A stretch of 64,000 bases of DNA from Antedon bifida (Eukaryota > Echinodermata > Crinoidea > Comatulida > Antedonidae), in NCBI GenBank assembly GCA_963402885.1, contig OY727093.1:23311409-23375408 (forward strand), written 5' to 3'. Position numbers and translations under genes: made by a program. A model generated the notes under the pieces. That model did no database searches. It saw nothing but the letters and a program-made list of their open reading frames with translations, and was not told where the DNA came from. This document shows positions 12,802 through 61,960 of this stretch, piece after piece (position 1 is the first letter of the stretch; the number at the start of each line of letters is the position of its first letter).

Positions 12802-12832
<31 letters not shown>

Positions 12833-20020: not shown

Positions 20021-20022
20021 TT

Positions 20023-20299: not shown

Positions 20300-20392
20300 A
20301 TGAGTATGGATGAGTACTTAAGAAAAGTATATTACGATCCTAAACACCCCGGTAGTATTGGTGGTGTAAAATTTAATTATGTTATACGGTAA
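20300..20392 (+). pseudogene. Integrase N-terminus-like remnant, right arm
   Basis: Inverted identical copy of 17758-17850; see there. Confidence 0.5.
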
Positions 20393-21061: not shown

Positions 21062-21229
21062 ATCGGCTCCGTATATTCACATTTTTGACCAAATTAAATG
21101 TTAATGTTGTAACTTTCTAAACACAAATAAACCACATAAATGATAAAAATACATTTCCTGACAAAATTAGTTTCTATGTTACAACTTCTTTTTAAAAAAC
21201 AAAAATAAATGTTTTAAGTTGTAACTTTC

Positions 21230-25317: not shown

Positions 25318-25348
<31 letters not shown>

Positions 25349-25468
25349 GTGAAATGATATACTCTGTCTTATACTATCCCCATTGTTAACCATTGTTATA
25401 AAAACACCCGGCGGATATTACGTAATCAGGAAAATTCATTTTGGGTCTGAAGTACCTTATCTACTACT

Positions 25469-25474
25469 GACGAG
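25469..25474. other. Target site duplication, right copy (GACGAG)
   Basis: Partner of 12676-12681. The GPCR sequence resumes here as gacgaggtagataacg. Confidence 0.9.
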
Positions 25475-29300: not shown

Positions 29301-29615
29301 CAATCAGCTTTTATATATTTTTATGTATACCTTTGTTTGTATATTTTATCAGGGAAGAGCGTAATTTCACTCTTCCCTGATTTCATGTAAGCCAAAGTTC
29401 TCAGCTATTGTTTGCTGGTTTGTACGGTATGTTATTTATACCATAATACATAAATACAATTATTAGAATTTAACATGATAGAGAGTTTGAGTAAGGGAGT
29501 CGGACATCATAAGGATGGACGTAGGGAATAAGTAGTTTGAAATGACCACAAGTTTATAAAACAAAGTATAGCTTTTCTAAATACATGCATTATTATTAAA
29601 CACATTTTTAGCAGT
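25475..29615. repeat. Tandem array unit 3 (mosaic)
   Basis: The GPCR part and the first tens of bases upstream agree with unit 2 (for example 'gtgcgtgtatacggg'). From about 26430 the spacer agrees with unit 1 (for example 'accaaattcaacctatgggg', where unit 2 differs). The unit breaks off at 29615 after 'tttttagcagta' and resumes at 36964. Spacer 26308-29615 holds no supported gene. Confidence 0.8.
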
Positions 29616-30179
29616 ACTACTTATACTACTACTAATAATACTACTAGGCCTATCTGCATTAAATAAAAATAAGAAAATGTCCCTTTTTTGTTAGACAACC
29701 AAATTAATAAAAACGGATGTACTCTATCTCTAGGCCTGGTGTATTCCTAATTAATAACTTGTTTAGGTAGAGAGTGTTATTTATTATGACTATTTCTAAA
29801 ATAGGCATAAAAACTAGGCTACGCCTAGCCTAGGCCTACCTACTTTTATTTTTAATTGAAGGGGAGTTAGAGTTAGTTTTGTTGTTGGGAATCGGAAGAC
29901 TCACGGCAACTTCCTTGCTTGCTTGAAATTGATAACCGCATGCAAAAATTGGCCGTTATCATCTTTCCTTTTTTCGCGTAAATTTTGTTGATATAAATTA
30001 ATCATCTATCATTCATTGATTATAGCAGGTACCATGTAGCATTTGGAGACTATATAAAGTCAATTTGAAAACAGTAGGCAATAACTATGGAGGTATAAAC
30101 TCCATGCAATAACAGTGCCTTGGTAAATTTGCATAATATGCTAGGAGGCCTAGGCCCAGGCCAGGCCTCCGAACCAAAG

Positions 30180-30508: not shown

Positions 30509-33160
30509 ATGGCCACCAACAAATCGATTGAGCTTCAACAAGGCATCATGGACCAACCAAATGAAGAAGAGTAGGTCTAAGCCCATGCTTTTTTTTGGAC
30601 TGTGAACAAATGTTTTGTTTGTTTTGTTCGGCCTAGGCCTACTAGGCTAGGCCTAGGCCTAATAGTACTAGGCCTACCTAGGACTAACCCAACTATTATA
30701 AAATGACAGGCCCTAGCATAGGCCTAGCGTAGGCTAGGAGGCCTAGGAAGTACCCTACTAGCCTAGTACTACTACTACTAGGCTAGCTAGGTTGGGTGTG
30801 TAGAAAGCGACGACCTCGAATTGGACGACCCCAACGACCCGGGCGACCTCGAATTGGACGACCTAGAATTGGACGACCCATAACACGAAACCGACGACCC
30901 CTATAGCCTAGCCTAGGCGTTAGGCTTAAGTGTGGTATAACATCCCGAAGCCGAACATAGCCAAAGATCTTTAAACCATACCTTATATAATACTCGCAAG
31001 CAAGCAATTGATTGAAAAAATACAGAAATATCGCCATTTGATACTGAATGTGTCGAAACGAACAAACGAACAGATATGGAACGCCAAGAGTGCATCATTA
31101 AAACTGCATTCGACTCGATTAGCACACGAAATATCATAAACATGGCAAACAAGGTAAAAACGGCCCCCTTTTCAGCGGCGGGTAAGGTTTGCTCAGTGGA
31201 TTGGTCATTGGTATTTCGACAAACATATTAAAAAGAAATTCAAAAGAAATAAATATTATACATTACATGGTTAAACCATGGACGTATAATTACATCTTCT
31301 TCATATAACGAACACTATAGGCCTACCAAGCAGCGTGTTACGAACATGTGCATGGGGAGGGCCATAAGAAAGCTTTACATTTCACATATGCATTGTATAC
31401 GGTCAAACCTTACCCGCCGCTGAAAAGGGGGCCGTTTTGACCTGGGTTGCCATGTTTATGATATTTCGTGTGCTAATCGAGTCGAATGCAGTTTTAATGA
31501 TGCACTCTTGGCGTTCCATATCTGTTCGTTTGTTTGTGTCGACACATTCAGTATCAAATGGCGATATTTCTGTATTTTTTCAATCAATTGCTTGCTTGCG
31601 AGTATTAAATAAGGTATGGTTTAAAGATCTTTGGCTATTTTCGGCTTCGGGGCGGGATGTTATACCACGCTTAGGCCTAGGCTAGGCTATAGGGGTCGTC
31701 GGTTTCGTGTTATGGGTCGTCCAATTCTAGGTCGTTCAATTCGAGGTCGCCCGGGTCGTTGGGGTCGTCCAATTCGAGGTCGTCGCTTTCTACACACCCT
31801 AGCTAGGTTAGCCTATTCTATAACTAGGCTAGGCTAGCCTCTAGGCCTCGCTAGCTACCTACCTACCTAGGCCTCTTTAATTTAGTAGTACTACTAGCTA
31901 GTAGTAGGCCTAGGTAGTAGCCTACTAGAGAGTAGGCTAGTTCTGTAGTAGGCCTAGGGCCTAGGCCCTAGCTAGCCTAGGCCCTACTTGGTAGGCCTAC
32001 TACGTAGGCCCTAGGCCAGGCCTAGTCTACCCGGAGTAAGGGTAGCTTTAATTAATAAATTGGTAATTTGTTATTTAAGGCAAAATCCTAGGTTAGGCCT
32101 AGGCCTATCTACTCTAAAGCCTAGTCGTAGACCAAATTAGCAGACTAGCCTCTAGGCCTATGCCATGTAGGCGTAATAAATAGTATTCTAGCTTATGCCT
32201 AGCTAGGACTAGGTCTAGTATACTAGCCTAGGCTAGGCTAGAGGCCTAGGCCTACACGCCTTCTTTCCTAATCCTAGTCTAGTCTAGTCTAGCTATCTAG
32301 GCCTAGAGGTCTGTGCGTAAAACTAAATATATAGCCTATCGCTAGTAGTAGGCCTAGGCTAGGCTAGGCCAAGTAGGATAAAGTACTAGGCTAGGTTAGG
32401 TAGTAGTAGTAGTAGTAGTAGTAGTTGTAGTAGTAGTAGTAGTAGTAGTATAGTTAGTACTAATTAAAAGGTAGCCTAGGTCTAGCCTCTATCTACTAGG
32501 CCAAACTGTAGGCTAGACTAGAGAGAGACTTTCAACATAGGTAGGGCCCTGAAGCAGGCCTATTAGTAATATACTAGATAGGTAGCCTAGCTAAACTAGG
32601 TCTAAGCTAACCTAGGCATAATTAATAGAAATCTTATTCTTAGGCTTAGGTAATTAGGCGCTATAACTAGCCTACCTAGTAGATTAAGTAGGCCACTAGC
32701 CTAGACCTATTCCTACTGCCTATATGTAATAATAATAAATAATAAATACAGCCATGGCCTAGACTAGGCCTAGTTCTTGGCTCTGCTGTAGTCAAGGTAG
32801 GCAGAAACGTGAGTGTAATTTGTATACTAGCTCCTGAACTTACTAATACTAGGATAGTTTTTGTATGGCATAGCCCTGATAACATGCCGAGTGTAGGCCT
32901 ACAAAGCTGATCGCTATTCTTTAGTACTACTGGAACTTGGTCTACTATTGAAATTATTATCGAATAATCTAGTGTAACTGTTATGAATTAATTATGTTTT
33001 GTTTTGAATTAAGTAGATCTCAACAAGATGTACCCCAGAAAGCAAGAAGAAAGTCAATATTTAGAAGGATTTTGACAGCAGTAATTCATCTTTTTTGTAT
33101 CAGAAGTGATGAATCAGCGGATAGCAACTTGAGTTCGTCATCGTCGTCGTCGTCGTCGTT

Positions 33161-33239
<79 letters not shown>

Positions 33240-34496
33240 TCATCATCATCATCATCACCACCTTCATCATCACAATCGTCTGTGAGGCCACGGTCATCGA
33301 CATTCGCGCTTTCTCCTGGCCAAATACTTGCCATACCAGGTCTATCACCCGGAAAGATCAGTCTTCCAAGGCAACGTGATCGTAGTGCGGCGTCATCATC
33401 CTCGGCATCTATCGCTTCTCCATCCCGGTGTATTTTAAAAAAACCAACATCCGCGTTATCAACTGGTGAGCTTTCACAAAGGAAACGTTTGGGTAGTGTT
33501 CCATCATCTTCTTCATCGCAATGGCCATTGTCATCTGTAAGTAGCTTCGATAGTGCGTCGACAAGTAACACCACCACCTCACCAACATCCGTCCTTAACT
33601 CTAGAGATGCTACAGCAAAACTTTCGGAAATGCTGCCGCCTATGAGGTTGTTGGATAGCACATGCGTCTCTCACCTTTGTAATCCCGTACGTCTTGGGCA
33701 GGGAAGTTATGGACGTGTTGACTTGATGTCATCAAATCTTTTTCCAGGTCATCAACTCCTTGTCGCAGTCAAAACGGCCTTTTTGGATAGTTATAACAAT
33801 CCTGATGAAGCATGGTACCAGATGGTTATGGAAGCGCGTGTTATGAAGTTTTTATACGATCTACCTTCTGTTCCTCAAGTCTTTGGCGTTTTTCGCCAAG
33901 GTCAAGTATGCTGTATGGTACAGGAGTTTATTGGCAACATTCGCAGCATGTGTAGTACAACATTTCTGCAGGTATTGCAAACAGGACAACCTTCATTAAG
34001 TGCGCTTGAATGTATGTCTATGGCAATAGAAGTGGTCACTGCTCTCAATACCATCCATCAAAGAGGACTGCTTCACAATGACGTAGCGCTTAGAAATATC
34101 TTAATCCACCACGATGGAACAACATATAGAGCGAAGATTACAGATTTCGGGATGGCATGCAGATTGCAATACCCAAGAGAACATAAGAAGTTAACCTTTT
34201 CATCGATGGACGAGGGCCTGAAGTTCCGACAAGATTATCCGGACTTGGCACCAGAAAAATATCTTAATGGTGCTTGCGATTCAGTTAAGGGTGACGTGTA
34301 TTCCGTCGGTCATGCTTTGAAGATCATAGCACTAGCAATTGGAAGTAGGGAGATGATTGACCTTGGACAGGCTTGTACGGCATTCAATGCGGATGATCGA
34401 CTATCTCTAGGTCTTGTAATCAACATCTTGAATACCATCCAAGAAAATGAAAAGATAATTCCAACATGCCGGGGTATTAACCAGCGTTTGATTTAA
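30509..34496 (+). CDS. Protein kinase with poly-serine N-terminal region (2 exons)
   Basis: Exon 1 30509-30570 (begins MATNKSIELQQ), donor gtaggt; exon 2 33017-34496 after acceptor taagtag. They join in phase 2 to 513 aa. If the splice is wrong, exon 2 is still open from ATG 32994. Order: basic stretch (KARRKSIFRR), about 40 serines coded mostly by TCG repeats (33136-33258), serine-rich linker, kinase domain from about residue 240. Motifs: glycine loop GQGSYG, VAVK lysine, HNDVALRN (HND in place of HRD, catalytic D kept), DFGMA, APE in LAPEKY. It could thus be active; 'VALRN' recalls tyrosine kinases, but no subfamily is recognised. Cytosolic or nuclear; no signal peptide. Poly(A) signal at 34657-34662. 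The 2.4-kb intron carries an inverted repeat and the TAGGCCTA-rich stretch. Confidence 0.8.
30794..31799. repeat. Inverted repeat (arms about 397 bp) in the kinase intron
   Basis: Arms 30794-31191 and 31404-31799 pair with few mismatches around a loop of about 212 bp. Outer parts carry short tandem repeats of 'gacgacctcgaattg' type. Transcription through it would give a long hairpin RNA. Could be a fold-back MITE; no target duplication identified. Confidence 0.85.
31026..31153 (+). other. Exon-like open stretch inside the inverted repeat
   Basis: An open frame (including MERQECIIKTAFDSI and ISTRNIINMA) is bounded by acceptor-like 'aaaaatacag' and donor-like 'aaggtaaaa'. The mirrored copy near 31430-31557 on the minus strand keeps the frame but has gtcaaa at the donor. 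It could be an alternative exon of the kinase gene, but its end phase does not fit exon 2. No family recognised. Confidence 0.25.
33136..33258 (+). repeat. (TCG)n/(TCA)n coding microsatellite
   Basis: Encodes the serine run of the kinase. Pure TCG in the middle, TCA at the 3' end. The antisense frame gives a long aspartate run, which is not a gene. Confidence 0.95.
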
Positions 34497-36643: not shown

Positions 36644-37107
36644 GGGGTTTTAGATTACTACGGATTTTGTAATTAGTAGTTTGTAATTACTACGGAAATT
36701 CGGCCTAATTTTACGGACGTAGAGAAATGAAAAAAAAATCCACTGACCGCCGTTAAATTGTGCGCGGTTAATTTTACGCTGCATTCAGTCAATTTACATA
36801 TAGACTCTTCCAACACTGGACTTCTTTAACGGACGTTAATGGTTAATATATGCCTATGATGAAGTGGGATCTAAATTTTAATTTAGTGGCAGAAAAAAAC
36901 ATTTAGTATGAAATTAAGGTTGTTGCCCGGGCAACTGGGGCAACACCCCTGCGTCCGCCCCTGCTACTAGAATAAAGAGAAACTATTACTGTGGCAACAA
37001 AATGTGATGTTCCCCTATATTTCATTTTATTTCATTTATTCCTCTCAAAACAATAAAATGCACAAACATAATACATAACAGCAGAAAATGAGACAGGGCC
37101 CTCCAAA

Positions 37108-37226
37108 AGTGAACTAAATCACTATCGGTGGGGACCCTTAATGAACACGATGATGTCATAATCACTACCATATTTGGGCACATCACACTTTTTGGCCAAA
37201 CTAGTTTGATAGTGTAGACAGAGCTT
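37108..37226. repeat. Dispersed short repeat, copy in unit 3/4
   Basis: Same element as 7735-7866, slightly shorter. Confidence 0.6.
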
Positions 37227-37304
37227 TATTGAATTAACACAAAATGCACAGCAAAGTGTGACAGTCAATTATAGAACTTTAATGAAGTAGGCAATCAATT
37301 ACAG

Positions 37305-38197
37305 TTAATATAACCATGGTCGATCGAAGATTTTGACGAATAATTGGTTAAGTCCGTGTCTAAATGTCCTATTCATCAGAGAGTAAATTACTGGGTTACA
37401 TGACGAGGTCGATAACGCTAACCACATTGAAATAGTTTTAAACCCATCTGGTAAACGCACCTTCCATAACTGACAATTCACTACAACACAAAGGCTGATT
37501 TGATCTTGGGTCTTATCATATTTGTCGAATTCGATGCAAGTGTTGTAACATTCTGAATACGATTTAGTTGCTGGAAAGTTAACTTACCAATGTGGTAATA
37601 TGATTTGACTGTTAATGAAACCGGAATGAACATACATAAAGCAGATATAGACATCGAAAACATAATGTTCTCTTCCCACTTGATCAGACAATTAAATGAA
37701 TAAGGGTCATATCTGTTCCTCCCCAATCCTATGATGACAAATACAAAAGGTTGAATCCACGTCCAGCCTAACAAAATGATAACATTCCGTTTGCTCATTT
37801 TTAAATCGTAAAGTAAAGGGTTGATTATAGAATGGTATCTTTCAATTGATATTGCACATAGAGTAGCAATGCTTGTTAAGTAGCACTGTCCAGTCATAGA
37901 AGAAGAAAACTCGCAGATCCAGTCTTGTACAAATGGCCATCCATCACATATAGAAGCAGTAAGAACAATAGGCATTACGAATAGTCCGACTGAAAGATCT
38001 GCGATTGCTAGATTTGCTACGAAGACATACGTTTTTGTGTGAAGGGATTCGACTGTGTAAATTACAGCAAGAGTTAAAGAATTACCAATAATTGCAAAAA
38101 GCATAATGATGACAAAAATGGCTGTTCTGAATATTATTGTCACTGTGGTTGATGATTCTATTTCGGTAGAATTCATTGTCAACAATAGGAAACGCAA
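37305..38197 (-). pseudogene. GPCR copy 4, 49-bp deletion through TM6
   Basis: Open from MRFLLLTMNSTEIESS through TM5 and the third intracellular loop. A 49-bp deletion just left of 37487 then removes most of TM6, including WLPY, and shifts the frame. TM7 with NPVIY and the original stop (37305-37307) remain downstream out of frame. The upstream start region is also rearranged relative to the other copies. It is more diverged than copies 1-3, so it is the oldest split. Confidence 0.88.
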
Positions 38198-41112: not shown

Positions 41113-44100
41113 TTAATTGATAGGAAACTTTGTCTGCACCATCTGGAAAGATGAATAATAACAGTAAAATATTTAAATAATACATCCGATATATATTCTT
41201 AAATTATAGCAGGCACCAATATAAATTGCGTAACATGAACCAGACACTTCTTGAGTTTGGCTGGCACAAAATAGTTTGGGCTTAAAGATGTACTGTATTG
41301 TCCCCTAAAAACATGAAAAATGAAGATTAATAAAATCATAATAAGAAAAAGAACCCCGAAAATGACAAAATAAATGGTTAAATTCTTAAAACCAAAAACC
41401 CTGACGTAATTAAAAAAAACATTTTTTTCAGGGGACAATATATCTTTAACAAAAAAGTAGTGATGTGTACGTGATACTCACTTGCACAAGACGTTTTCTG
41501 TAAACGTCTTCATGTTCCATTTGATGTATCTCAGGTACTTTCATGTCATGACGTTCGATACACATTCTCAACTGTTCAACAGTTAAAATTTCAGCTGGAT
41601 CAATATTATTTTTATTAATCAAACTGACAAGATACTCCTTGTAATGCACTCTGAAAAACCCCAACAAACTAATTAAAATCTCTTTGATACTAATGGTACT
41701 ATGCTTGATTAAAATAGTACACTTTCGATATTTGTTTTACAGAAAATTGAACATGCTGTACTTTTCTTGAATTAAAATGAAATATTGAACATTTACACAT
41801 ACTCGCACAATCCTGCATTTTGAGCTTTTACACACTTTCCACACATTTGATCTACTAGAGTTTCCTTTTGCTCTTGCACAGTACATCCAGCATTTTGGTT
41901 ACCATTCCTTGGTTCTATGTCAAATTCTACTTCACCATTCTGTAGCATAAAATTGAATATTAAATAAAATATAGAATTGATTACTTTACAGTATAACGGA
42001 TATACACTTAGGTCATTTGGTAAACTCTGCAATAATGTCGTCCTTCTATAGGTCAGTTATAGAGAGTGTCATAACGTATTCTTTAACGGTATGGTTCGGT
42101 AGCGCTACCGAAAATGAAAAGCGTGACCTAAATAGAATAGTCAAGACAGCATCGTGTATAATTGAATCTGCACAATTGCCTTTGGTGAACATATTTTCGA
42201 ATCGTCTTCTGAAAAAGGCAGTGGCTATCAAAGATGATCAATTTAATCCGGCCTCTAGTATGTTCCAGTTGATGTGCAGCGGTCGGCGATTTCGTTCTAG
42301 TAAGGCCAATAAGGCACGATTTACAAATAGTTTCTTTCCAGGAGCTATTAGAGCCTCAAACATCATGTAGACACTTTTTGTAATGTTTTTGTTTTGAGTA
42401 CGTGTTGTGTCCGTTGGATATTGTGCTTCGCCAACAGAGCAAACAGAATTTCTGTTTTTTTCGTAAAAATGACAATAAATGATACTTGACGTTACTTGAC
42501 TTGACACAGTACATTTTTCACTACAAACACTACTATAGTGAATTGAAACAAAATTCAAACTCAAAAGTCACGGACATAAGCTGATTACAATATACTTGAA
42601 AAAAAACCCCAAAACCATGTGCTAGTACAGCCTCGAATTTTTACCAATCTATTACTCTATGATCATACCTGCAGTAACTGCTGTAGTTCATGAACATTTT
42701 GATCTCTTAGATAAAACAAGCAATATCTAGGATGATGTGCATGCATTCCTTTCTTGGCACAAGATTTGTATTTCCTACAAGTCTGACATAAACCATCATA
42801 AAATGTTAATTTTCAAATAAAAAACAATGTATTTTTGATCAATTTGAAAAAAAAGTAATTAGGCTAGTATGTACTGAAAAGAAAATGCAAAATGTTTTCA
42901 AATGCTGGGATGCCTTGTGTGGTAGTAAGTAAAATGATACACATAAGCAAATTAGTAAGCTGCTATAATATTCCGAGCAATCAAACTGAACAAAAAACGA
43001 CAAAAGTAAAAAAATAAAAATTAAAATCGATAGGCTTCACAGGGAAATCCTTACATAAAATTAAGAAAAAACATTACAATTACAAATAGTAATTTAGCTA
43101 CTGTCAAACATATTAAATATTTAAAAAGGTTAAAATTGCATGACAAAACTAAATAATGTTTGGAATCGAAATAAGCACACATTTATATACTGTACTTACC
43201 GAAGAATATTCCTGGTTGCAGCCACTACAGAATCCGTGTTTACAATTTGTACACGTAAAGTGCAAACAGCCTCCTCTAGCAAGATCATATCTTGCGTTAC
43301 ATTTAGGACAATCTAAAGGTTGAATTATTAACAGTAATAATTATAAACACAATAATTCATGAAGATGGTATATCTGTAGCTGATCGTAGAAAACCTCAGT
43401 ATCGTACACAAAAACATATACCAATTATGATTATGATAACAATAATTATTATATCCGTGAATAAGTGCATTTTGTAGGATTGTAGATAATAAATAAATCA
43501 TTTTATTTGACAAATCCAAAAGAAATTACTCACATTCTTTAGCTTTCGCCATCTTGGCTGATGGCTTGATCACAAGTGATCCGGTCCATAAATCAGATTT
43601 TTTGCCGACTTTTACTCTTAATATATCAATATAAATGCTGCCATCATTGTTCAGAAAGTGTACTTTAATGTATCAGAAAGTATACTTTTATGTATCAGAA
43701 AGTTAAAATATGTTGCTATTTGTCATGCAAACACAACAAAGGAGTTTTACCTATTCCATGAATCTCTAGATATCTGTCAACTTTTGCAGCCTGGGCATCA
43801 GGGTTATTGTCTTGTTTCCATTGCTTAAATTGTTTACATGTCAGTCCGTCATGTTGTGCCTCCCACTTTAGATTGATGAAAAGAAAAAACAAATATTAGC
43901 TAATACCTCAACTTCCTTAGCTTCCACCTTAATTCTGCATTTATAACAAATTGCGATTAGTTAATTACATTTTAGCCAAGGGCTGATATCGAAAATTAGG
44001 CAAGCAAGGATAATGTATTGTGTTTATAATTGTTATATGAACATATTTGATTTCAGTAACAAAGAGTCTCAAGTTGACCATCATCCCACAGCCTAAATGT

Positions 44101-47100
44101 GGTCCAGAATTAGGATCATGGTCCGGGATATTCCCTCCAAAATGTAATGGAGTCTTTAGCTAATACCGTTCAGGGGTTTGAATTTGGTAAAGAGATCCCT
44201 GGTCTGAAATTAGTAAAAAAACAAAATCGTGGTGCAGAATTTGGATCCTGGTCCGGAACATTGCCTCCAAAATGTAATAGCGTTATTGTTATTGTTGGTG
44301 TTTGGCAAAGATCCGCTTCAAATTTGTAGAATATTAAAAATGTGTTCACCCTAATCCGGATTTCCTCAATGTCTTCCGTGACCATATCTCATTGTGGTTT
44401 AAATGTGGTAAAGTTTCGTCTTTTAAGCTCTGTCTAAACTATAACACTTTATGTGACAAAAATATGTGATATATACGGAAATGATGATGTCATTTCACTA
44501 CCATATTTGGAAACATCACACTTTTTTACTAGTTTGACTAGTTTGATAGAGTAGGCAGAGCCTGCTAACAGACAAATACAAAAACAAACAGGAATAAATA
44601 TTGCAGACAGAAATATAAATTCTCTATAAGTTCTTAAGTTTACCTTCTCTTTACATTCAAAGCATGTGTACTGTTTACATTCTGGACACTGCAATTTACA
44701 TCCAATTCTTTGATTAATAAAACCATAACCACACTAGAAGAAAGCAAAACGATATTTTTTTGGGGGGGAATTAAGACGATTTTCGGAAACAAGCCCTATA
44801 AAATATAGCAGAATAGCACTGACAAAGTGAAATTAAATTAAAACATTATGACTTTCGGGCTGCCCAATCCAGGGCCGTAGCCAGGATCTGTCAAGGTGGG
44901 GTTCGGACACTAAGTATTTGGGCACACCCCTTGATTGCCGGAAATGGTACTCTCGCACATAACATTCATGATAAATGGCACCGCTATTTGGCCGAAAAAA
45001 ACACTCTCATGCAGCATGCTACCGATCGTACTTTTTTCCTCCTCCTCACACACGTGGACTATTTAAAGGACGATAACATTTGTTGCCGTATGTTAGATAC
45101 GCGTGCTCTGCGCGGAACCGCCGATTGTTTGATCATTCACTCGGTATTCGTATTTATTTTTCAGGTGAAAATCGGCAATTCATTTACAACTCTTAGAAAT
45201 TTACAGACACGTATCTCTTGACGTACGCTCATACAGAGAAGAATGTATGAGTTATTCACGAACGAGTTTACGAATTTTTCAATTTACGAATAACCTTTTG
45301 TACTGTGGGGCACGTATTTGGAGGATTTTCAGAAATGAGGGTGAGGTACTGTCGGCGATGGGGGTTCGCAGTCGGTTAAGGGCGTTCGCTGTAAAGTGGG
45401 GTTCGCCCGAACCATAAAACCCCCATGGCTACGGGCCTGGGTACCACGACCAATTCGTCTAATGAGGCTTGCTTAGATAGTGGCACTGTGTAGCCATTGT
45501 GAAGCGCGCTGGAGCACCATATTTTAATATCAACTGCTTACGTGTGAACACCATCTGAATCTTTCATCATCCATTAATGATATGTCTCTTAATTTTCGAT
45601 GAAGCAAATCAAAAACATCTCTCTCGAGCAAACTTTGCAACTTTAAAAAAGAAAGTTTGAAAAGTACAGTGATAAAATAAAAAAAAGAATATAAGCCATT
45701 AGTGTAGCTAGTTTCGAGGGAATACTGAAAATAGGTAATTGTGTACGTTTTGGGTTTACTGGGCAAATAGACATGCCAGATAAAAATTATTGCGAGTATT
45801 CCCACCGATTGTCCAGATACGATTTCTACTGTAAGGTACTGTAACTTACCATAGGGTCAATTTTTGCAAAATAATCAGAAACTTCAGCTTTGTCCATGTC
45901 TTTAAGTTTTGGGAGACTACAAGAAGGACATGAGACATCAACAATATTCTTGTCTTTGATGCAAGTTGTATAGTGTTTAGAAAGGCATTCTTCACAAAAC
46001 CAACACTGCTTGTCTTGGGAACAATATGGAGACTGCCGAATCTAAAAAAATTTAAATTTGGTTGTAAGTGCAGTAGTGTGTGCAGAGGGGCGGATATAGG
46101 ACGATTTTAAGGGTGACTTTGTGAGTGACGGAAGTAAACCAGGCTAGGGCCAGGGAACTTGTAAGGGGCCGGTGGGTGCTTTCAATCGGTTTACGGGCAC
46201 ATAAATATGGTCAATTTCCGATACACATTTATTTAAGAATTTGAAACTAATTGTGTGTTGTTTTGCTATTGTATTATAATAAATGAATTTGACTGGCAAC
46301 ATGGTGGGTGTCATTCAAAACAATTGTGCAGATAATGAGCTCTGTTGTGATTAAATACCTGAGTCATTGGAAAATCAGTTAAACATATAGGGCAATTTTT
46401 TCTATTGTCATTGTCTAGTTTCCATTGCTGAAATAGTTCACATGTCTGTCCATCATAATGTGCTTCCCACTTTAGAAAGAATAATAAAACAAAATAATAG
46501 TAATAATTATTATGGCAATCACATTAAAACCAGTTTGACTTCTCTGAAAAGAAAATTATCATAGTAATATAATAGTTAGTAACTTGGTAATAGTATATTT
46601 AGAATATATAACAAAAATAGCATTAGCTTTACAATCAGAATAAAATGATCACTACAAAAACATGTTATGTCCGTTGTCACTGGATTATCCTGCGTTTAGT
46701 CTGTGTTCTTACGTTTACCTTTTCTTTACATTCAAAGCATGTGTACTTTTTACATTCTGGACACTGCATTTTACATCCAATTCTTTCATTAATAAAACCA
46801 CAACCACACTAGAAGAAAGCAAAACGATATTATTTTGGGGGGAATTAAGACGATTTTCGGAAACAAGCCCTATAAAATATAGCAGAATAGCACTGACAAA
46901 GTGAAATTAAATTAAAACATTATGATTTTCGGGCTGCCCAATCCAGGGCCGTAGCCAGGATCTGTCAAGGTGGGGTTCGGACACTAAGTATTTGGGCACA
47001 CCCCTTGATTGCCGGAAATGGTACTCTCGCACATAACATTCATGATAAATGGCACCTCTATTTGGCCGAAAAAAACACTCTCATGCAGCATGCTACCGAT

Positions 47101-50100
47101 CCTCACACACGTGGACTATTTAAAGGACGATAACATTTGTTGCCGTATGTTAGATGCGCGTGCTCTGCGCGGAACCGCCGATTGTTTGATCATTCACTCT
47201 GTATTCGTATTTATTTTTCAGGTGAAAATCGGCAATTCATTTGCAACTCTTAGAAATTTACAGACACGTATCGCTCTTGACGTACGCTCATACAGAGAAG
47301 AATGTATGAGTTATTCACGAACGAGTTTACGAATTTTTCAATTTACGAATAACCTTTTGTACTGTGGGGCACGTATTTGGAGGATTTTCAGAAATGAGGG
47401 TGAGGTACTGTCGGCGATGGGGGTTCGCAGTCGGTTAAGGGCGTTCGCTGTAAAGTGGGGTTCGCCCGAACCATAAAACCCCCATGGCTACGGGCCTGGG
47501 TACCACGACCAATTCGTCTAATGAGGCTTGGTTAGATAGTGGCACTGTGTAGCCATTGTGAAGCGCGCTGGAGCACCATATTTTAATATCAACTGCTTAC
47601 GTGTGAACACCATCTGAATCTTTCATCATCCATTAATGATATATCTCTTAATTTTCGATGAAGCAAATCAAAAACATCTCTCTCGAGCAAACTTTGCAAC
47701 TTTAAAAAAGAAAGTTTGAAAAGTACAGTGATAAAATAAAAAAAAGAATATAAGCCATTAGTGTAGCTAGTTTCGAGGGAATACTGAAAATAGGTAATTG
47801 TGTACGTTTTGGGTTTACTGGGCAAATAGACATGCCAGATAAAAATTATTGCGAGTATTCCCACCGATTGTCCAGATACGATTTCTACTGTAAGGTACTG
47901 TAACTTACCATAGGGTCAATTTTTGCAAAATAATAAGAAACTTCAGCTTTGTCCATGTCTTTAAGTTTTGGGAGACTACAAGAAGGACATGAGACATCAA
48001 CAATATTCTTGTCTTTGATGCAAGTTGTATAGTGTTTAGAAAGGCATTCTTCACAAAACCAACACTGATTGTCTTGGGAACAATATGGAGACTGCCGAAT
48101 CTAAAAAAAAATGTAAATTTGGTTGTAAGTGCAGTAGTGTGTGCAGAGGGGCGGATATAGGACGATTTTAAGGGTGACTTTGTGAGTGACGGAAGTAAAC
48201 CAGGCTAGGGCCAGGGAACTTGTAAGGGGCCGGTGGGTGCTTTCAATCGGTTTACGGGCACATAAATATGGTCAATTTCCGATACACATTTATTTAAGAA
48301 TTTGAAACTAATTGTGTGTTGTTTTGCTATTGTATTATAATAAATGAATTTGACTGGCAACATGGTGGGTGTCATTCAAAACAATTGTGCACATAATGAG
48401 CTCTGTTGTGATTAAATACCTGAGTCATTGGAAAATCAGTGAAACATATAGAGCAATATTTTCTATTGTCATTGTCTAGTTTCCATTGCTGAAATAGTTC
48501 ACATGTCAGTCCATCATAATGTGCTTCCCACTTTAGAAAGAATAATAAAACAAAATAATAGTAATAATAATTATTATTATGGCAATCACATTAAAACAAG
48601 TTTGACTTCTTTGAAAAGCAAATTATTATAGTAATATAATAGTTAGTAACTTGGTAATAGTATGTTTAGAATATATAACAAAAATAGCATTAGCTTTACA
48701 ATCAGAATAAAATGATCACTACAAAAACATGTTATGTCCGTTGTCACTGGATTATCCAGTGTTTAGTCTGTGTTCTTACGTTTACCTTTTCTTTACATTC
48801 AAAGCATGTGTACTTTTTACATTCTGGACACTGCATTTTACATCCAATTCTTTCATTAATAAAACCATAACCACACTAGAAGAAAGCAAAACGATATTTT
48901 TTTCGGGGGGGAATTAAGACGATTTTCGGAAACAAGCCCTATAAAATATAGCAGAATAGCACTGACAAAGTGAAATTAAATTAAAACATTATGATTTTCG
49001 GGCTGCCCAATCCAGGGCCGTAGCCAGGATCTGTCAAGGTGGGGTTCGGACACTAAGTATTTGGGCACACCCCTTGATTGCCGGAAATGGTACTCTCGCA
49101 CATAACATTCATGATAAATGGCACCTCTATTTGGCCGAAAAAACACTCTCATGCAGCATGCTACCGATCCTCACACACGTGGACTATTTAAAGGACGATA
49201 ACATTTGTTGCCGTATGTTAGGTGCGCGTGCTCTGCGCGGAATCACCGATTGTTTGATCATTCACTCGGTATTCGTATTTATTTTTCAGGTGAAAATCGG
49301 CAATTCATTTGCAACTCTTAGACATTTACAGACACGTATCGCTCTTGACGTACGCTCATACAGAGAAGAATGTATGAGTTATTCACGAACGAGTTTACGA
49401 ATTTTTCAATTTACGAATAACCTTTTGTACTGTGGGGCACGTATTTGGAGGATTTTCAGAAATGAGGGTGAGGTACTGTCGGCGATGGGGGTTCGCAGTC
49501 GGTTAAGGGCGTTCGCTGTAAAGTGGGGTTCGCCCGAACCATAAAACCCCCATGGCTACGGGCCTGGGTACCACGACCAATTCGTCTAATGAGGCTTGCT
49601 TAGATAGTGGCACTGTGTAGCCATTGTGAAGCGCGCTGGAGCACCATATTTCAATATCAACTGCTTACGTGTGAACACCATCTGAATCTTTCATCATCCA
49701 TTAATGATATGTCTCTTAATTTTCGATGAAGAAGATCAAAGACATCTCTCTCGAGCAAACTTTGCAACTTTAAAAAAGAAAGTGGAATGTGTAAAAAGTA
49801 CAGTGATAAAATAAAAAAAAAAGAATATAAGCCATTAGTGTAGCTAGTTTCGAGAGAATACTGAAAATAGGTAATTGTGTACGTTTTGGGTTTACTGGGC
49901 AAATAGACCTTTAGTGAAACTCACTGTTTTTCCTGCCAGATAAAAATTATTGCGAGTATTCCCACCGATTGTCCAGATACGATTTCTACTGTAAGGTACT
50001 GTAACTTACCATAGGGTCAATTTTTGCAAAATAATCAGAAACTTCAGCTTTGTCCATGTCTTTAAGTTTTGGGAGACTACAAGAAGGACATGAGACATCA

Positions 50101-53100
50101 ACAATATTCTTGTCTTTGATGCAAGTTGTATAGTAGTTAGTAAGGCATTCTTCACAAAACCAACACTGCTTGTCTTGGGAACAATTTGGAGACTGCCGAA
50201 TCTAAAAAAAAATTGTAAATTTGGTTGTAAAAATCGTAAGTGACGATGACATTTTGGTTTTAAAGCTGTCTATACATCACATTTTTTATTCACATAAAGT
50301 TAGATAATGTAGACAGAGCAGTTAATAAATATGGTGGTGATTAGGGTTGTATGTGTAGTTCTAAGTTTATTATCTGTTTGCATTATCTCTGCTTTTTACC
50401 AATTTTAAATAATAAGAATTTACTCTCGTTGATTTATTGAATAACATAATGATATTCATTCATTTATTGATTCAATCTCGGAATCTTTGGTCCATAGAAA
50501 GAAAAAATTACATATAAATTAATTAAAAATAAACAAAACTGTACTAATTACTACTACTCATCTCAGGATGACATTCCACCTGGAGAGCATCTTTGACTTT
50601 GATATAAGACGTTGCCTAATAATCGTTGTGACTAAAACAATAATAAATAGTTTGGCAAAATAAGAGATAAGAACCTAGCTCTATACGGCATACCCCTTAG
50701 AGCCGCCACTTCCACAGGCCTATGCATGTACAAAAACACCGGATACTTACCGGAAACCGTATTTATAAATAATTTGAAAAAAAATCACCAACTGTACCTG
50801 CGTCATTGGATAATCCTTATTACACATAGCGCATCTTTTTCTACCACCCTGAGAAGGCGCTTGAGTAGTCCTGTACGATGTTTTTGAACACGCACCACAG
50901 ATGGAAGAACCTGTGTCCACATTACAGAAGGTACAATGTGGACAATCCCATCCAATGCTTTGAGTGTTGTCAGAAGGAATAACCACTGATGTTGCCTGTG
51001 TAGTTTCATTTACAACAGAAGCCCATTTTAGGTGTTCCATATTAGGCCTACTATTACTCTCTGGAACTATTATGGAAGCTGGTTCCGGATCTTCAAATCT
51101 ACGCTCCGTATGTATTGAGGTAGGCCTAATGTAACTGTAGCCGTGAATAATAGTGTGAAGTTCTTTAGGGTTAGGATGCTTATTGTCCAGGTATTTTTTA
51201 ATTTCAACTTGAGCTATCATAAGGTCTGTAACTATATTTAGGACACGATCTTCGTCAGGGTGGTTGACATCGGGGAAAGATAACCCATCATAATTTGATA
51301 CGGTATATCCAAGCTGAAAAAGTACTGCTTTTGATCCCTAAACAGTCAGAATACAATTAATAACACAATAATATTGCACGATTTTCCTCATTGTGGTTAT
51401 GTCAAGTAATAGAAATATGGTTTTAATTTGGAACCTTTTACCTGCATTACATAACCAGATTTTTACTCCTTGTTCTTTCACATAAGATCACGTACTAACT
51501 TGTATGTGTACGATGAAAAAGGAAACTTTAACTTTAAACGCACGGTCATTCGCATGCCAATCTGGCTAATTTCAAATAATGTCTAGATGTTGGAAACTTA
51601 GAAAATGGAAACATAGTGTTGAAGTTGAAACTCAACAATTATGCTTATCTATATATAAATTATGGTTAATTCTGACATAGGCGAGCACAATGCAAAAACT
51701 TCGGTACAAATCTCCGCCTTGGATATCTACCATATCTATCTCAGATGTATCGCGAAACGTAGATTTTATAACATTAGTGTTCAGTTCGACGCTATTGTTC
51801 CATATTTCTATCTTAGGAAGATATTATAAAGGGTTTTATAAGACATTTTCTGATTTCAATCGGTAAATTTTAACTCTACGCGCGGTAAGTAATTTCCGGG
51901 TTCACGGTAAGGTGTGTCAATCACCTTGCAAGTTCCCTGCATGGTTGGTTTCAACCAGGGAGTTGTCCCTGTTTAAACCTTGGCCGTTTGGTTTTTTGTT
52001 TATTTTCGGACCGCGCGTGTGAAGGATAGTACTGTAGTACATAAAGATCAAATTAAATATATTCATAAAACATAGGAGTAAATTGTGGGAAATAATTATA
52101 TAAAATTACATCGAGAGAATTGTTGAGTAAGCTGCCAGGACTTTATGTATACTATGCATGCGCTATCTGTGTCCCGTCAGGACCCTGGGATACTTCTGCC
52201 CATGTTGCAAGCCGTCTAAAACGTCTTCCTTCTTAGGCCAAAACGGCTCACTGTGTCGTGGAATAATGTATTAATTATACCAATTAGGATGGTATTTATT
52301 TGAATAAACGCCCGGAACACCTCCCCAATAAAACATCAATTAAAATAATTATCGCCAAAACTCCCCACCCCCATCCAAATACCATCTAATTAACGCCCAT
52401 CCACATTTATACACACAATATTGTATTATATTTATAACACAATTATACTATTTTTGAGTAGATTTCATCGGACTGTTATCTAGGCCTACAATTTATCAAG
52501 CATTTGTTATTCTTTTTTACCACTTTTCATATATACAATAAACACTATATAAAACGCTATTAATCATCTAAGACACTGTGAAACAGGTTAGTGAGTAGGT
52601 TTAGTTTTACGAATATCAAAAGCATTTAAATAATGGTAACCGATCGAAATCGTCCAGGCCAGAATGTCCTTCTAAAACTTTTTACCCGAGTCATTATCAT
52701 TCCGAGAACCATCGTCTACACTTCCTAGAGGGGGAGCGAGCGAAGCGAGCTCACCCTCTAGTTATTCAAATTAGCATTCATTTATGCTCAATTTTATCAT
52801 TACAGTATTAGTATTCAGTTACTGTTTATTTCAAATATGCCTAGCGTAAGTAGAGGAAATATAATTTCTGAAACATTGTATTAAACAGTGTTTAATTTTA
52901 AATATTTTATCTAAGTTTATATAATATCCACAGAGAACAGTGAAAAACACGTTCAAGTAATATTCTAAAAAAAGTCTAAAAAATAAAATGACTAAAAGAA
53001 GCTTACGTTACCTCAACAACTTCAATTTCGTTTTTATATATTTCATCTGAAAATGAAATTATCTTCCATGTTGGTGGTCGTCTTGCTGCAGGGTTTAATA

Positions 53101-54431
53101 GAATGCGTCCATAGTTTTCCAATTGTTTAAAAGCAGTTTTAATCAATTGAAGAGCTTCACTTTCTTTCTACGACATAATTACACAAGATTATTCGATAAA
53201 ATACGTACGTAAAGATTTCACTTATAAGGCCTAGTCGATTTGTATCAATACTGTTTGTATTTTTATACCATTTTACAGTCATTTCATGATAATAATTGTT
53301 AATAATGGTTGTCTTACAGTACATATCGCATTGTTATGATGATTGGTATGTATTTAGCATTAGCTTACATATAATACGTTATTTTATATGAAGCCAGTGG
53401 AATGTATGTCTTATTGCCAGTGTCAAGACGGATTAGATAATGCCCATAATGATGATGATATATTTATTGTTTCACACAAAATCCTGAGGAACATATTTCC
53501 AAACTAAAAGAGGTGCTCAAAAGGTTGAAAAAGCAAATCTAAATGTTACATTTGGAAAATGAATTCTTAGAACATGTAATTGGGCAAAGATTTTAAGTGA
53601 ATGATAAGTTTCCGAGTGTAGATATATTTGATTGATTAGTGTATAATATTTACTGTTGAGTTAATACTGTAGTACATGCAAAGGTATACAAATATATCTA
53701 CTAGAATTCATAATCATCCACAAACTAAATATTAAACACAATGCTGACAGATGTTATCAGAACTGAGACAATACCGAATTCTTTTATATAGTATCTAATC
53801 AGTTGCATTATCGAATTTGTATTTACTTATAAAGGGTTTACACCATCATACTGAAAACCATGTAGTGTCATTGTCTAAAGAGTACAAAGTTCTTTATAGA
53901 ACCACTAGTTTACCTTTTTTAACGTTAACAATAAAACAAAATGTTCAGTCAACTAAACATTGTTAATGGCAATGAAATGTGTTATACCTTAGGTAATTCT
54001 GATTTTTGTTGAAGAAAAAATAAAGGATATTTCATATGAATAAAGAGCAGTGACGTGACGTTTCAACCAAAAACGTATGTAAACCTTCAAGTTATATGAT
54101 TGCTTTGGTTACAAGGAGTCCGTTTGAGTGTGATTGTACAGATTTAAATTAAAATTATATTGATTTAAAAAAAAATTGAGTTGTCGATGCTGTTAAATAA
54201 ACATAATATTCATACCTTTCCACCAAGGTTATTCCCCAGCAATGGGCCAATATCGATGACAGCATAATGTCCCAGAAATGAACTGTCGTTTCTTAAAATG
54301 TCAACAGCAATTGACATCGCCTGCCTTCTTCCCCAATATTTAGAAATTATCTTCCTCACAAAATTACCATTCTGCTCTTCCCGCAGATTGTTCATAATTC
54401 CCAATCGTGCAGTTTTGGTTTCCTCCTCCAT
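41113..54431 (-). CDS. RNF31: RNF31/HOIP-like RBR E3 ubiquitin ligase with three RING1-IBR modules (20 exons)
   Basis: HOIP is the catalytic subunit of LUBAC; it makes linear (Met1) ubiquitin chains in NF-kB signalling. Exons: 54216-54431, 53012-53167, 50798-51337, 50010-50201, 49669-49767, 48786-48875, 48420-48530, 47909-48100, 47601-47699, 46719-46808, 46359-46469, 45850-46041, 45542-45640, 44644-44733, 43751-43865, 43200-43312, 42669-42782, 41803-41939, 41482-41650, 41113-41142. All phases fit; product about 984 aa. Order: PUB ([27 protein letters not shown]), one NZF ([10 protein letters not shown]), RING1 start (RCAMC) joined straight on, three RING1-IBR copies, RING2 with the catalytic cysteine in [11 protein letters not shown], and the linear-chain domain ([11 protein letters not shown], as in human). 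The UBA for HOIL-1L/SHARPIN and other zinc fingers of the human protein are absent. Start M at 54431 chosen; an in-frame M at 54476 is possible. Confidence 0.93.
42017..42506 (+). mobile_element. CR1/L2-like LINE fragment (end of reverse transcriptase ORF and tail)
   Basis: Open frame 42017-42370 with features of the C-terminal RT-ORF of CR1/L2-like elements: [49 protein letters not shown]. It ends with a short tail of 'acttgac' repeats at 42482-42506. 5'-truncated, inserted in an RNF31 intron in the opposite orientation. Confidence 0.8.
44100..44567. repeat. Repeats in the RNF31 intron left of the triplication
   Basis: A diverged direct repeat of about 55 bp ('ccctccaaaatgtaatgg' and 'gcctccaaaatgtaatag') at 44100-44155 and 44230-44285, then a diverged copy of the dispersed repeat of 7735-7866 at 44480-44567. 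Confidence 0.55.
44630..46060 (-). repeat. RNF31 RING1-IBR segment, copy a (3'-most)
   Basis: Holds the exons for the RING1 second half (45850-46041), linker helix (45542-45640) and IBR first half (44644-44733), all 0-0 phase. The IBR exon here reads [20 protein letters not shown]. It is spliced to the only ordinary IBR end exon (43751-43865) and on to RING2, so this is the copy in the standard position. Its intron carries a MITE. Confidence 0.9.
44869..45440. mobile_element. Non-autonomous DNA transposon (MITE), copy in segment a
   Basis: Terminal inverted repeats 'ccagggccgtagcc' and, inverted, 'ccaggcccgtagcc'; about 572 bp. An ORF inside (44931-45221) is not conserved in length between copies and I do not count it as a gene. 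Target duplication not clear. Confidence 0.75.
46359..46469 (-). other. Hybrid exon joining IBR end to RING1 start (between copies b and a)
   Basis: 37 codons, phase 0-0. The first part ([17 protein letters not shown]) matches the IBR end exon at 43751-43865. The last part ([13 protein letters not shown]) matches the end of the exon 50798-51337 ([13 protein letters not shown]), which opens RING1. This makes the duplicated module seamless. Confidence 0.9.
46700..48126 (-). repeat. RNF31 RING1-IBR segment, copy b (middle)
   Basis: Exons 47909-48100, 47601-47699 and 46719-46808. Nearly identical to copies a and c, with coding differences (for example [20 protein letters not shown], and N for K in SQDNQC). 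Zinc-ligand cysteines in RING1 (QCWFCEEC type and CPSC) are kept. Confidence 0.9.
46943..47499. mobile_element. Same MITE, copy in segment b
   Basis: Same position in the duplicated unit as 44869-45440, so it was there before the triplication. It lacks about 15 bp present in copy a. Confidence 0.75.
48420..48530 (-). other. Hybrid exon joining IBR end to RING1 start (between copies c and b)
   Basis: Same structure as 46359-46469, with [17 protein letters not shown] and [13 protein letters not shown]. The cysteine pair of RING1 is kept. Confidence 0.9.
48770..50230 (-). repeat. RNF31 RING1-IBR segment, copy c (5'-most)
   Basis: Exons 50010-50201, 49669-49767 and 48786-48875. Similarity to the others ends on the right at about 50230, shortly after the acceptor. 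Slightly different RING1 (CLTNYYTTC) and a short insertion near 49905-49930. Confidence 0.9.
49012..49567. mobile_element. Same MITE, copy in segment c
   Basis: Third copy by duplication of the host segment. An open frame of 156 codons (49074-49544) is probably fortuitous. Confidence 0.75.
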
Positions 54432-59037: not shown

Positions 59038-61960
59038 ATGATCACCAATGATTACCACGAAGAGCTAAAACCACTTGTTATCGACATTGGTTCAGACATG
59101 TGCAAAGCGGGGTTTGCAGGCGATGATGCCCCAAAGGTCGTGTTCCCAACTTTAACTGGAAGACAAAGCAAACAGGTATCGCAAATAAGTCTCATAAGAT
59201 AAAGAACATTTGTTTATGTAATTTTCTGATTAGATTATACCATAATAGTGTCTTTTAACATGTTTACAACATTGAACAATTGCTTTGTCTGATCTGATTG
59301 TTTATGGGTTTTTTTCCATTTTGGTAAGTCACAAATGGCACGGATGGTACGAAATGAAGACATATTATATATTGGCAACGAAGCACAATCAAATCGAAGT
59401 AGGCTTACTCTGAAATGTCCAATAGAACATGGTATTGTAACCAATTGGGACGACATGGAAAAAATATGGCACCATTGTTTTCACAATGAACTTCGGGTTG
59501 AGCCTAATAAACACCCGATACTACTGACAGAAGTGCCACTTAACCCTACAGCGAACCGAGAGAAAATGACACAGGTAGGTAGTAGGCTAATAGTATTTTA
59601 ATTGAATAAGTCGTATCGACTAAATTTCTGAAATTAAACTATTATTTTTAATATTATTATTTTTTGCTTTTATACCCAAAACAAAAAAATATTAAAAAGC
59701 TTATTAGAACTATAGTACATTATATTGAACCATAATAAGAAACGTATTAATCACAACAATGGAAAAAAATAATAGGCCTACAATTTTATTGCAGTTGTTG
59801 AAAGAACAAAGTTGCAGAGTATACTTTTTATACTCTATAGTTCACTATGTCGGTCGGTCGGTCGGTCTGTCTATCGGTCCGTTATCACTATACATTGTAG
59901 CACGCGACTTAATGTTGTTTATTGTAATGATTATAAGAAATAACGTTCCTATTGAACCATATTTTATAGTAGGCGTAATATAACATACTATATTTTGCCA
60001 AAAACAATAAAAGGTTGAAAAATCACAATTTTTTTTAACAAAAAGTGAAAACAGTATTTATACATAAGCTTAGATTTTTTTTTATTTTTAGACAAATAAA
60101 TGCAGAAATTTTAACATTTTGTGTCATCTGTTGGTAGTTTCAGTATTTCTGAAAATCTCAACTTATGTCTGATTTCGCTTGAGTGTGTGTCTTATATATA
60201 ATTGTTTAGAATAAAATGTATTATGGAGATTCTTTTTATTAAATATAAAAAAAATGTACAATTAATATATGATACATGATGAGAGTAAAATGAATCTTCA
60301 AAAACTATCGACTCTTTTGTATATATTATTTCTGATCATGTATTTTAGTAGGTGGTAATATAAACTGTATACCGATACTGTAGAAGACAACACCTTTATC
60401 ACAAAGGCAGAAAAACGAAAAATTATAATTTTGTATTGACACTAAACAGGTTTATGAATAAAACATTGTAGTTCAAACGAACTGATTTTAATTACAACCA
60501 CTACAATAATAACAGATTATGTTCAATGGGAACTGAATTCTTGTTTTTACACTGCAATAAAAAAGGAAACTATGCACCACTGGTTAATCGAATTCCTATT
60601 CTAAATCACTGTGATTTAAAGAGAACATAAAAAACCCTCCTGGATAGACTTCCTATTTTGAAGCATTACACTGAGGTTCAATGGGAACTGACATTGTGTT
60701 AACAACCACTGCAATAAAAACGTACATAAGGCAATGCGTAGTTTAATAATTTATTCATTTTTACATCCTATATTTACAGTATTCATTATGGATCAATAAC
60801 AACCAATTTTGTTAAATTACGTCAAAAAGCATTTATCTGTTCATATTTGTAATTGGACAGTAAAGTAACGCTTCAAGCAGTAAACTATAGTACTACTACT
60901 TTTTACAAAAGAAGTTTCATTTCATTGGTTAGTACAATTAATATTCCTTAAACCGGGGCATAACCATATTGACCAAGGCAGATTTTGGAATACCTTCCCA
61001 GGACTGTGCTGTGTATAACCTTACCAACAGACACAGCACACTCAACGTACTTTCTGTCATTTTCCGAATTATTTCGGATTTCTAGATTATGTTTGAGACA
61101 TTCGACGTACCTGCAATGTACATAACCACACAAGCTGTTCTGTCTCTGTACGCTGTAGGAAGACGTACTGGCATAGTTTTTGATTCAGGAGAGGACGTTT
61201 CCTATATTGTTCCAATCTACGAAGGATATGCACTTCCATACGCTATAGAACGAGTTGATTTAGCTGGACGGCATATTACTGAACATTTAGCAAGGATTAT
61301 TTATGAACGTGAATATTCACGGAAGGTAAGTTAATATTCTTAGCTTTGGCAGACAAATATTTTGTCTCTCGTCTGGACAACATGTTATTCAACCAGTTTG
61401 TACACTAAATAAAATTACTATAAGTAGTGCTTTTCTTGTAGCTGGAAAAAGAAATTGTTCGAGACATAAAGGAAAAGCTCTGTTACGTCGCTCTTGATTT
61501 TAAAGAAGAAATGAATACAGCCGCAGTAACTAATTCCATTGAAAAAAGTTACGAAGTGCACAACAGAGACTACATAACAATCGGAAACGAACGATTTCGA
61601 TGTCCCGAAATCCTCTTCCAACCATCGCTTGTAAGAAGAAAACATTGTGGAATTCATCAAATGATAGTTGACAGTATAGTAAAATGTAACGTTGACATTC
61701 GTAAAGAACTTTATCAAAATTGTGTGATGTCGGGTGGTTCTACAATGTATCCAGGAATTGCGGATCGTCTGCAAAAAGAAATGACGACACTAGTACCGAC
61801 CGGTACCGAGGTAAAAGTAATAGCTCCCCATGATCGCAAGTATTCGGCATGGAAAGGGGGATCTATGCTAGGATCTTTGTCAACTTTCCAACAGATGTGG
61901 ATTAGTAAACTGGAATACGAGGAATTCGGCCCTCGGGTGGTGCAAAGGAAGTGCTTTTAA
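59038..61960 (+). CDS. Divergent actin-like protein (4 exons)
   Basis: Exons 59038-59175, 59329-59574, 61086-61325 and 61442-61960, all phase 0; 380 aa against 375 for actin. Collinear with actin end to end: phosphate loop 1 [54 protein letters not shown], phosphate loop 2 [34 protein letters not shown], and the C-terminus KCF. It differs strongly where actin is most constrained: the D-loop and its flank ([19 protein letters not shown] replaces the usual GVMVGMGQKDSYVG type) and several surface residues. Hence an actin paralogue or orphan actin-related protein, perhaps with tissue-restricted use (such as testis), rather than a cytoplasmic actin. A 'ttttttcag' at 59000 suggests a 5' UTR intron. 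AATAAA at 62073-62078. Confidence 0.92.
59819..59912 (+). repeat. Dispersed GTCGGTCGG repeat, copy 2, in actin intron 2
   Basis: See 55517-55593. Intron 2 (59575-61085) is otherwise AT-rich with no other feature. Confidence 0.65.

Follow-up and report, generated by a model that had tools for sequence, protein, structure and literature searches.

Introduction

RBR ubiquitin ligases are regarded as fixed RING1-IBR-RING2 machines. Among the closest described systems to the one considered here is human RNF31/HOIP, the catalytic subunit of LUBAC and the enzyme that makes linear ubiquitin chains, for which HOIL-1L/SHARPIN, OTULIN and CYLD/SPATA2 are partners and whose UBA domain binds HOIL-1L and SHARPIN. 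The UBA is considered to restrain isolated HOIP (PMC12441119), and exon duplications in human Parkin lead to loss of function (PMC3730226). No RBR protein with a repeated RING1-IBR was recognised in searches of an open-access library. Here, we describe a gene from the feather star Antedon bifida that is predicted to encode an RNF31/HOIP-like ligase with three tandem RING1-IBR modules, designated A, B and C, in front of a single RING2. The gene lies in a window of 64,000 nucleotides of contig OY727093.1, the whole stretch of DNA that was analysed, and all positions are those of this window.

Results

A predicted HOIP-like product with three RING1-IBR modules

The gene runs on the minus strand from an ATG at 54431 to a stop codon ending at 41113, and was modelled as 20 exons encoding a product of 984 residues, corresponding to 2952 bases of coding sequence plus the stop codon (Table 1). 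The frame contains no internal stops, and all 19 of the 19 introns have GT-AG borders. From E1 to C7, each exon starts in phase 0, and the exons of the repeat block are thus symmetrical, as the original prediction, made from the sequence alone, had claimed. Its coordinates and its length of 984 residues were likewise reproduced by the gene model, which, together with the domain matches described below, upheld the predicted order PUB-NZF-(RING1-IBR)x3-RING2-LDD. A possible additional exon in the C7-F8 interval, suggested by an open frame at 43526-43672, was discarded, since the direct C7-F8 join yields the conserved linker. A search of Rfam gave no match.

The part of the product from RING1 to the LDD matched the human RNF31/HOIP structure 5edv in the PDB (E = 8.3e-94), and the PUB matched 4p09 (E = 6.1e-18), the Pfam PUB family being matched only below the cut-off. 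Above the cut-off, Pfam returned the LDD (PF18091, E = 1.1e-26) and the IBR. The NZF was recognised by reading from its pattern, Trp-x-Cys-x2-Cys ... Cys-x2-Cys, in exon E3, and had no Pfam match up to E = 1; Pfam alone is too weak here for both RING1 and the NZF. RING1, IBR and RING2 follow each other in the order that characterises RBR ligases, with a catalytic Cys in RING2, but where these ligases have one RING1 and one IBR, the predicted product has three modules.

For comparison, we used the 120 listed of 166 related proteins found, most of which were vertebrate RNF31. A query made from the single module of A. mediterranea RNF31 (P0001) matched the product three times, at residues 291-454, 455-618 and 619-784, with scores of 240.9, 240.0 and 249.7 bits, respectively. 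The same query gave a single match in each of the 120 relatives. Thus, the search for a repeated block that had been proposed with the original prediction returned one module per relative and none with more than one RING1-IBR, and the predicted three-module layout differs from that of all 120 relatives examined. A query covering RING2 and the LDD was split into two pieces in 13 of the 120, the pieces being consecutive in ten cases and the first piece being weak (≈12 bits) in three; none of these is read as a second RING2. A two-module query of 328 residues, run against candidates of 180-574 residues, returned a single match with 29% identity over 38% and no RNF31, and is therefore a weak negative.

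Zinc ligands and catalytic residues

In human numbering, the RING1 ligand positions 699, 702, 717, 719, 722, 725, 744 and 747 are Cys in modules A, B and C. The IBR has a C6HC pattern (PMC2904391), the assignment of which to numbered residues is our own. All seven Cys positions of the IBR are retained in the three modules. Position 836 carries His in module C, as it does in 120 of 120 relatives, but is occupied by Tyr in A and B. In these two modules, a His is found one residue before 836, leading to a His-x5-Cys spacing instead of His-x4-Cys. The earlier claim that the zinc ligands are kept in each copy thus stands for 15 of the 16 RING1 and IBR positions, and fails for H836 in modules A and B. 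The IBRs of A and of B enter the following RING1 after only a few residues, and lack the segment by which module C and the relatives continue to RING2.

All Cys and His positions in RING2 and the LDD that are invariant in the relatives, 81 of the 120 being placeable by pattern, are kept in the product. The C885 and H887 positions are retained, as are R935, D936, Q974, E976 and D983 in the LDD, which presumably have a role in chain linkage. Position 701, which adjoins a RING1 ligand, is Met, Ile and Ile in copies A, B and C, respectively. T731, whose change to Ala reduces E2 binding in human HOIP (PMC12441119), is Thr in all three modules. The allosteric-site positions T786 and V789 are Arg and Ser in all three modules, and are variable in other relatives too.

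Repeat structure, fused exons and probable history

Three direct copies with a spacing of ≈2.06-2.10 kb were detected independently of the gene model. The copies are 94.7-96.8% identical over 1.5-3.5 kb when gaps are counted, and the interior of the repeat is ≈98-99% identical by substitutions. The similarity ends at ≈50213 in copy A, 5' of exon A4, and at ≈44630 in copy C, 3' of exon C6. Beyond these edges, the introns align no better than shuffled sequence: in 200 mononucleotide shuffles, the observed alignment scores were attained 29 and 61 times.

Two fused exons, B1 and C1, connect the modules. In both, the 5' part resembles C7 (14 of 21 residues in B1), while the 3' part resembles the end of E3 that carries the first RING1 zinc pair (9 of 15 residues in B1). 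C1 differs from B1 by four substitutions, each of which changes an amino acid. The silent divergence of the fused exons from their parents is 0.19-0.36, corresponding to ≈2-3 silent changes each, compared to 0.03-0.04 among the copies inside the block. The statement that the copies differ by a few substitutions therefore holds for the interior only. A simple recent triplication was rejected, because divergence is far greater outside the interior, both in the flanking introns and in the exon parts from which B1 and C1 derive. From the same contrast, we infer that the duplication is probably old, and that its interior was afterwards homogenised and the array expanded.

At two-state sites, copy B is identical to C at 12 of 12 positions in the 5' half and to A at the last six of six; in between, B equals C at four sites and A at two. 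(These sites were counted by hand from the alignment, using substitutions only and excluding the edge columns.) Seven further substitution sites are private to copy B, and there are private insertions of 24 nucleotides in copy A and 17 nucleotides in copy C. The mosaic nature of copy B would fit unequal crossing-over from two modules, although the same picture would result if ancient differences had persisted at the outer edges of A and C. In each copy, the intron that separates exon 5 from exon 6 contains an element with inverted-repeat-like ends (CCAGGGCCGTAGCCAGG ... CCATGGCTACGGGCCTGG), located at 44869-45440, 46943-47499 and 49012-49567, part of which is 100% identical in all three copies. 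This element may have aided unequal crossing-over.

A probable divergent paralog of RNF31

Over RING1-LDD, the product shares 66% identity with RNF31 of A. mediterranea. As a yardstick for orthologs, we used ALKBH2, assembled from three exons of the window. Its full-length sequence shares 97% identity with a protein of A. mediterranea, which places the source of the window in that species or close to it, and 70-77% with other crinoid ALKBH2 proteins. This yardstick is a single gene, with several paralogs in A. mediterranea, among which the 97% match is clearly the nearest. Orthology with A. mediterranea RNF31 was rejected on this comparison. In the tree, for which 10 of the 16 rows were retained, the product is found beside A. 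mediterranea RNF31 (92/90), after the split from Anneissia, with a branch of 0.37 compared to 0.18. Provided that the 97% for ALKBH2 is a fair yardstick, we conclude from the low identity and the longer branch that the sequence is that of a divergent RNF31 paralog. The proposed RNF31/HOIP-type identity is supported by the matches to 5edv, 4p09 and the LDD, but the gene would not simply be the RNF31 of this animal.

In the PUB of the product, human positions 85 and 102 are occupied by Ile and Asp, respectively; six aligned relatives have Asn at both. By pattern, position 85 is Asn in 97 of 97 and position 102 in 95 of 95 parsed relatives (23 and 25 of the 120, respectively, were unparsed). In one study, binding to OTULIN was lost with N102D and fell 10- to 50-fold with a set of changes that included N85A (PMC4017264). 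Two stretches of P0001, of 442 residues between the PUB tail and the NZF and of 315 residues between the NZF and RING1, have no counterpart in the product, in which exon E3 passes from the PUB through the NZF directly into RING1. The missing stretches contain a B-box-like stretch, identified by eye, and the UBA. No match to PF16678, which we take to be the HOIP UBA, was found in the product up to E = 1, whereas the family is listed for P0001 and for the RNF31-like protein of Anneissia japonica (P0002). With the UBA match missing and the PIM pocket changed, we infer that the paralog would be uncoupled from its usual partners and brakes, namely HOIL-1L/SHARPIN, OTULIN and CYLD/SPATA2.

Other features of the window

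A 12.8-kb inverted self-copy with 99.4% identity occupies 12682-25468, centred at ≈19075, and is either a real palindrome or an assembly fold-back. It holds two mirror copies of the ALKBH2 exons and of a 2 x 478-nucleotide tandem repeat. Some ALKBH2-like proteins of A. mediterranea (P0124, P0125 and P0133) bear an additional PF02229 domain. Proteins of this type are encoded on contigs that differ in length, and the lineage seems to have undergone an expansion of ALKBH2. Several direct segment copies, ≈92-99% identical and of varying completeness, are located at 3427-12686, 25465-29616 and 36964-38186; a frame in these copies may encode a rhodopsin-type G-protein-coupled receptor. An open frame of 507 codons at 32973-34493 has a long poly-Ser run and a C-terminal part that we take to be kinase-like, and exon-like frames on the plus strand at 59293-61957 may represent actin. 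Within an intron of the RNF31-like gene, a plus-strand open frame at 41981-42370 resembles what we take to be the end of a reverse transcriptase from a non-LTR (long terminal repeat) retrotransposon.

Table 1. Exons of the predicted RNF31-like gene and extent of the repeat block, in window positions.
Feature	Position	Strand	Evidence
Exon E1: start codon, N-terminal PUB region	54216..54431	-	gene model, alignment; PUB match starts at residue 45
Exon E2: PUB, Ile at human 85 and Asp at 102 (PIM pocket)	53012..53167	-	gene model, alignment
Exon E3 (540 nucleotides): PUB end, short linker, NZF, first zinc pair of module A RING1	50798..51337	-	gene model
Exon A4: remaining RING1, module A	50010..50201	-	gene model, ligand check
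Exon A5: linker from RING1 to IBR, first Cys of the IBR, module A	49669..49767	-	gene model, ligand check
Exon A6: IBR core, module A	48786..48875	-	gene model, ligand check
Fused exon B1 (111 nucleotides): module A IBR end (836 = Tyr) and first zinc pair of module B RING1, in frame	48420..48530	-	
Exon B4: remaining RING1, module B	47909..48100	-	gene model, ligand check
Exon B5: module B	47601..47699	-	gene model
Exon B6: IBR core, module B	46719..46808	-	gene model, ligand check
Fused exon C1 (111 nucleotides): module B IBR end (836 = Tyr) and start of module C RING1	46359..46469	-	
Exon C4: remaining RING1, module C	45850..46041	-	gene model, ligand check
Exon C5: module C	45542..45640	-	gene model
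Exon C6: IBR core, module C	44644..44733	-	gene model, ligand check
Exon C7: module C IBR end with usual His ligand, usual IBR-RING2 linker	43751..43865	-	
Exon F8: RING2 with catalytic Cys (human C885) and H887	43200..43312	-	gene model, ligand check
Exon F9: RING2 end, LDD start	42669..42782	-	gene model, domain match
Exon F10: LDD	41803..41939	-	gene model, Pfam, residue check
Exon F11: LDD	41482..41650	-	gene model, Pfam
Exon F12: C-terminus and stop codon	41113..41142	-	gene model
Homogenised block, three copies	44630..50213	-	repeat comparison, gapped identity

Discussion

We propose that the locus encodes a divergent feather-star RNF31/HOIP paralog with a multiplied RING1-IBR module, and give this proposal, including the following history and working, an even chance of being correct. 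In an old tandem duplication, one breakpoint would have fallen within the exon whose 3' end encodes the first RING1 zinc pair, and the other within the exon encoding the end of the IBR. Joining the two would have produced a fused exon, in frame, with a new RING1 directly after an IBR at the domain border. The inner exons and introns would have been homogenised later, and unequal crossing-over in the near-identical interior would have raised the number of modules from two to three. Since module C keeps its zinc ligands, and the catalytic Cys, H887 and the checked LDD residues are also kept, module C together with RING2 and the LDD would be expected to catalyse as HOIP does. Because the usual IBR-RING2 linker is absent and the IBR His is shifted, modules A and B would at most dock E2 or ubiquitin upstream of the catalytic part, and not act as catalysts, or might be skipped in some transcripts; with every block exon in phase 0, splicing could set the number of A and B modules. 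The three RING1s may, as the original prediction suggested, hold several charged E2s for the single RING2. A more far-reaching version, which we regard as doubtful, is that the product is a linear-ubiquitin ligase freed from its partners and brakes, in which the two extra modules would form a copy-number-variable array, recently diverging, to which E2~ubiquitin and allosteric ubiquitin dock, ahead of a single catalytic RING2.

We considered the possibility that the array is an assembly artefact, in which the true gene has two or a variable number of modules, and two haplotypes or repeat passes were stitched together in tandem. Allelic differences in marine invertebrates span the level of identity seen between the copies, and the window has other near-identical duplications, including the inverted self-copy. 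However, the private insertions in A and C and the private substitutions in B make a simple assembler loop unlikely, and the fused exons, which are clearly diverged from their parents, must sit between two modules, so that at least two modules are required. At least two tandem modules are therefore hard to attribute to misassembly, whereas exactly three are less sure. Assembly error had been named in the original prediction as something that would overturn it: a loop is opposed by the two distinct fused exons and the copy-specific changes, but stitching of haplotypes could have supplied the third copy. Overall, we consider an artefact unlikely. A real array might also mainly feed alternative splicing, with most transcripts skipping copies to yield a single-module enzyme, and the array itself being harmless. 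Any set of block exons could be skipped in frame, but the splice sites are alike among the copies and nothing marks A or B for skipping; we rate this explanation for the array as improbable.

The amino-acid change along the branch was estimated as ≈20% from pairwise identities of 66, 59 and 65% over RING1-LDD. In a neutral simulation of the whole coding sequence with 20% change, the mean number of stops was 14.2 and the minimum five (200 runs), and with 10% change the mean was 7.3 and the minimum two, compared to none in the 984 codons observed. Selection thus kept the frame intact during much of the evolution of the gene. This result, with the intact exons, splice sites and invariant RING2-LDD Cys and His positions, argues against a decaying paralog that would end as a pseudogene, its frame not yet closed but its use gone, with the extra modules drifting. 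Such a fate would, on the other hand, be consistent with the long branch, the missing UBA match and altered PIM pocket, the radical changes private to copy B, the lack of a close match among A. mediterranea proteins and the absence of any sign of constraint in the exon differences among copies, and we rate it as rather unlikely. Several of these and other observations weigh against the multi-module paralog that we propose. Divergence among the copies is 2.4-2.9% in exons, compared to 0.7-1.5% in introns (p = 0.12 for AB, 0.06 for AC and 0.005 for BC). Of 19 exon changes, 14 are replacements (15 with the double change in one Leu codon path-averaged), as expected without constraint. These recent changes speak for relaxed or changing constraint on the modules, and against all three being strictly needed. 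The change of the IBR His may weaken modules A and B, and position 916 is Ser in the product, compared to Cys in 74 and Ser in five of the 81 placeable relatives. The tree fork with A. mediterranea RNF31 (92/90) is below the threshold at which the program assigns a star. No close match to the gene was found among A. mediterranea proteins in candidates of 541-1722 residues, nor in candidates of 180-574 residues, where the negative is weak, as the sole return was a distant match and no RNF31; the counterpart in A. mediterranea may be lost, unexpressed or unannotated. The greater divergence of exons than introns could also result from diversifying selection on the extra modules, for example in an arms race with microbial ubiquitin effectors, with the copies binding different E2s or evading inhibitors. 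Most of the changes alter the protein, and position 701, beside a RING1 ligand, varies. However, replacement changes are not in excess (14 of 19, compared to 82% of sites; p = 0.36), and part of the exon divergence is located close to the ends of the block, in which older differences survive; we rate diversifying selection as very improbable. Overall, we favour a genuine but divergent HOIP paralog, for which two predicted modules are the minimum and three are probable.

If true, three modules on one RING2 would test whether a RING1 must adjoin the RING2 that it feeds, and raise the question of whether additional allosteric ubiquitin sites increase activity. The gene would also show how HOIP behaves without its UBA and OTULIN docking, and would be a clear case of ubiquitin-ligase domains multiplied through an in-frame, exon-joining duplication, followed by concerted evolution.

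Among known systems, ARIH2, Cullin-9 and RNF144A gave weak matches to the product (E from 1e-7 to 2e-4). These proteins are of the RING1-IBR-RING2 type, like the product, with RNF144A matched through RING1 only, but unlike it they have no LDD or PUB match. Human RNF31/HOIP shares with the product the order of PUB (putative in the product), NZF, RING1, IBR, RING2 and LDD. It has one RING1-IBR where the product is predicted to have three, and differs in the IBR His ligand, which is shifted in two of the modules of the product, and in the N85I and N102D changes of the PUB and the missing UBA match of the product. The crinoid RNF31-like protein of Anneissia japonica (1477 residues) has the same order of shared domains, with one RING1-IBR and PF16678 present, and is 59% identical to the product. 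The nearest relative is A. mediterranea RNF31 (1414 residues), which has one RING1-IBR and retains both the PF16678 stretch and the B-box-like stretch seen by eye.

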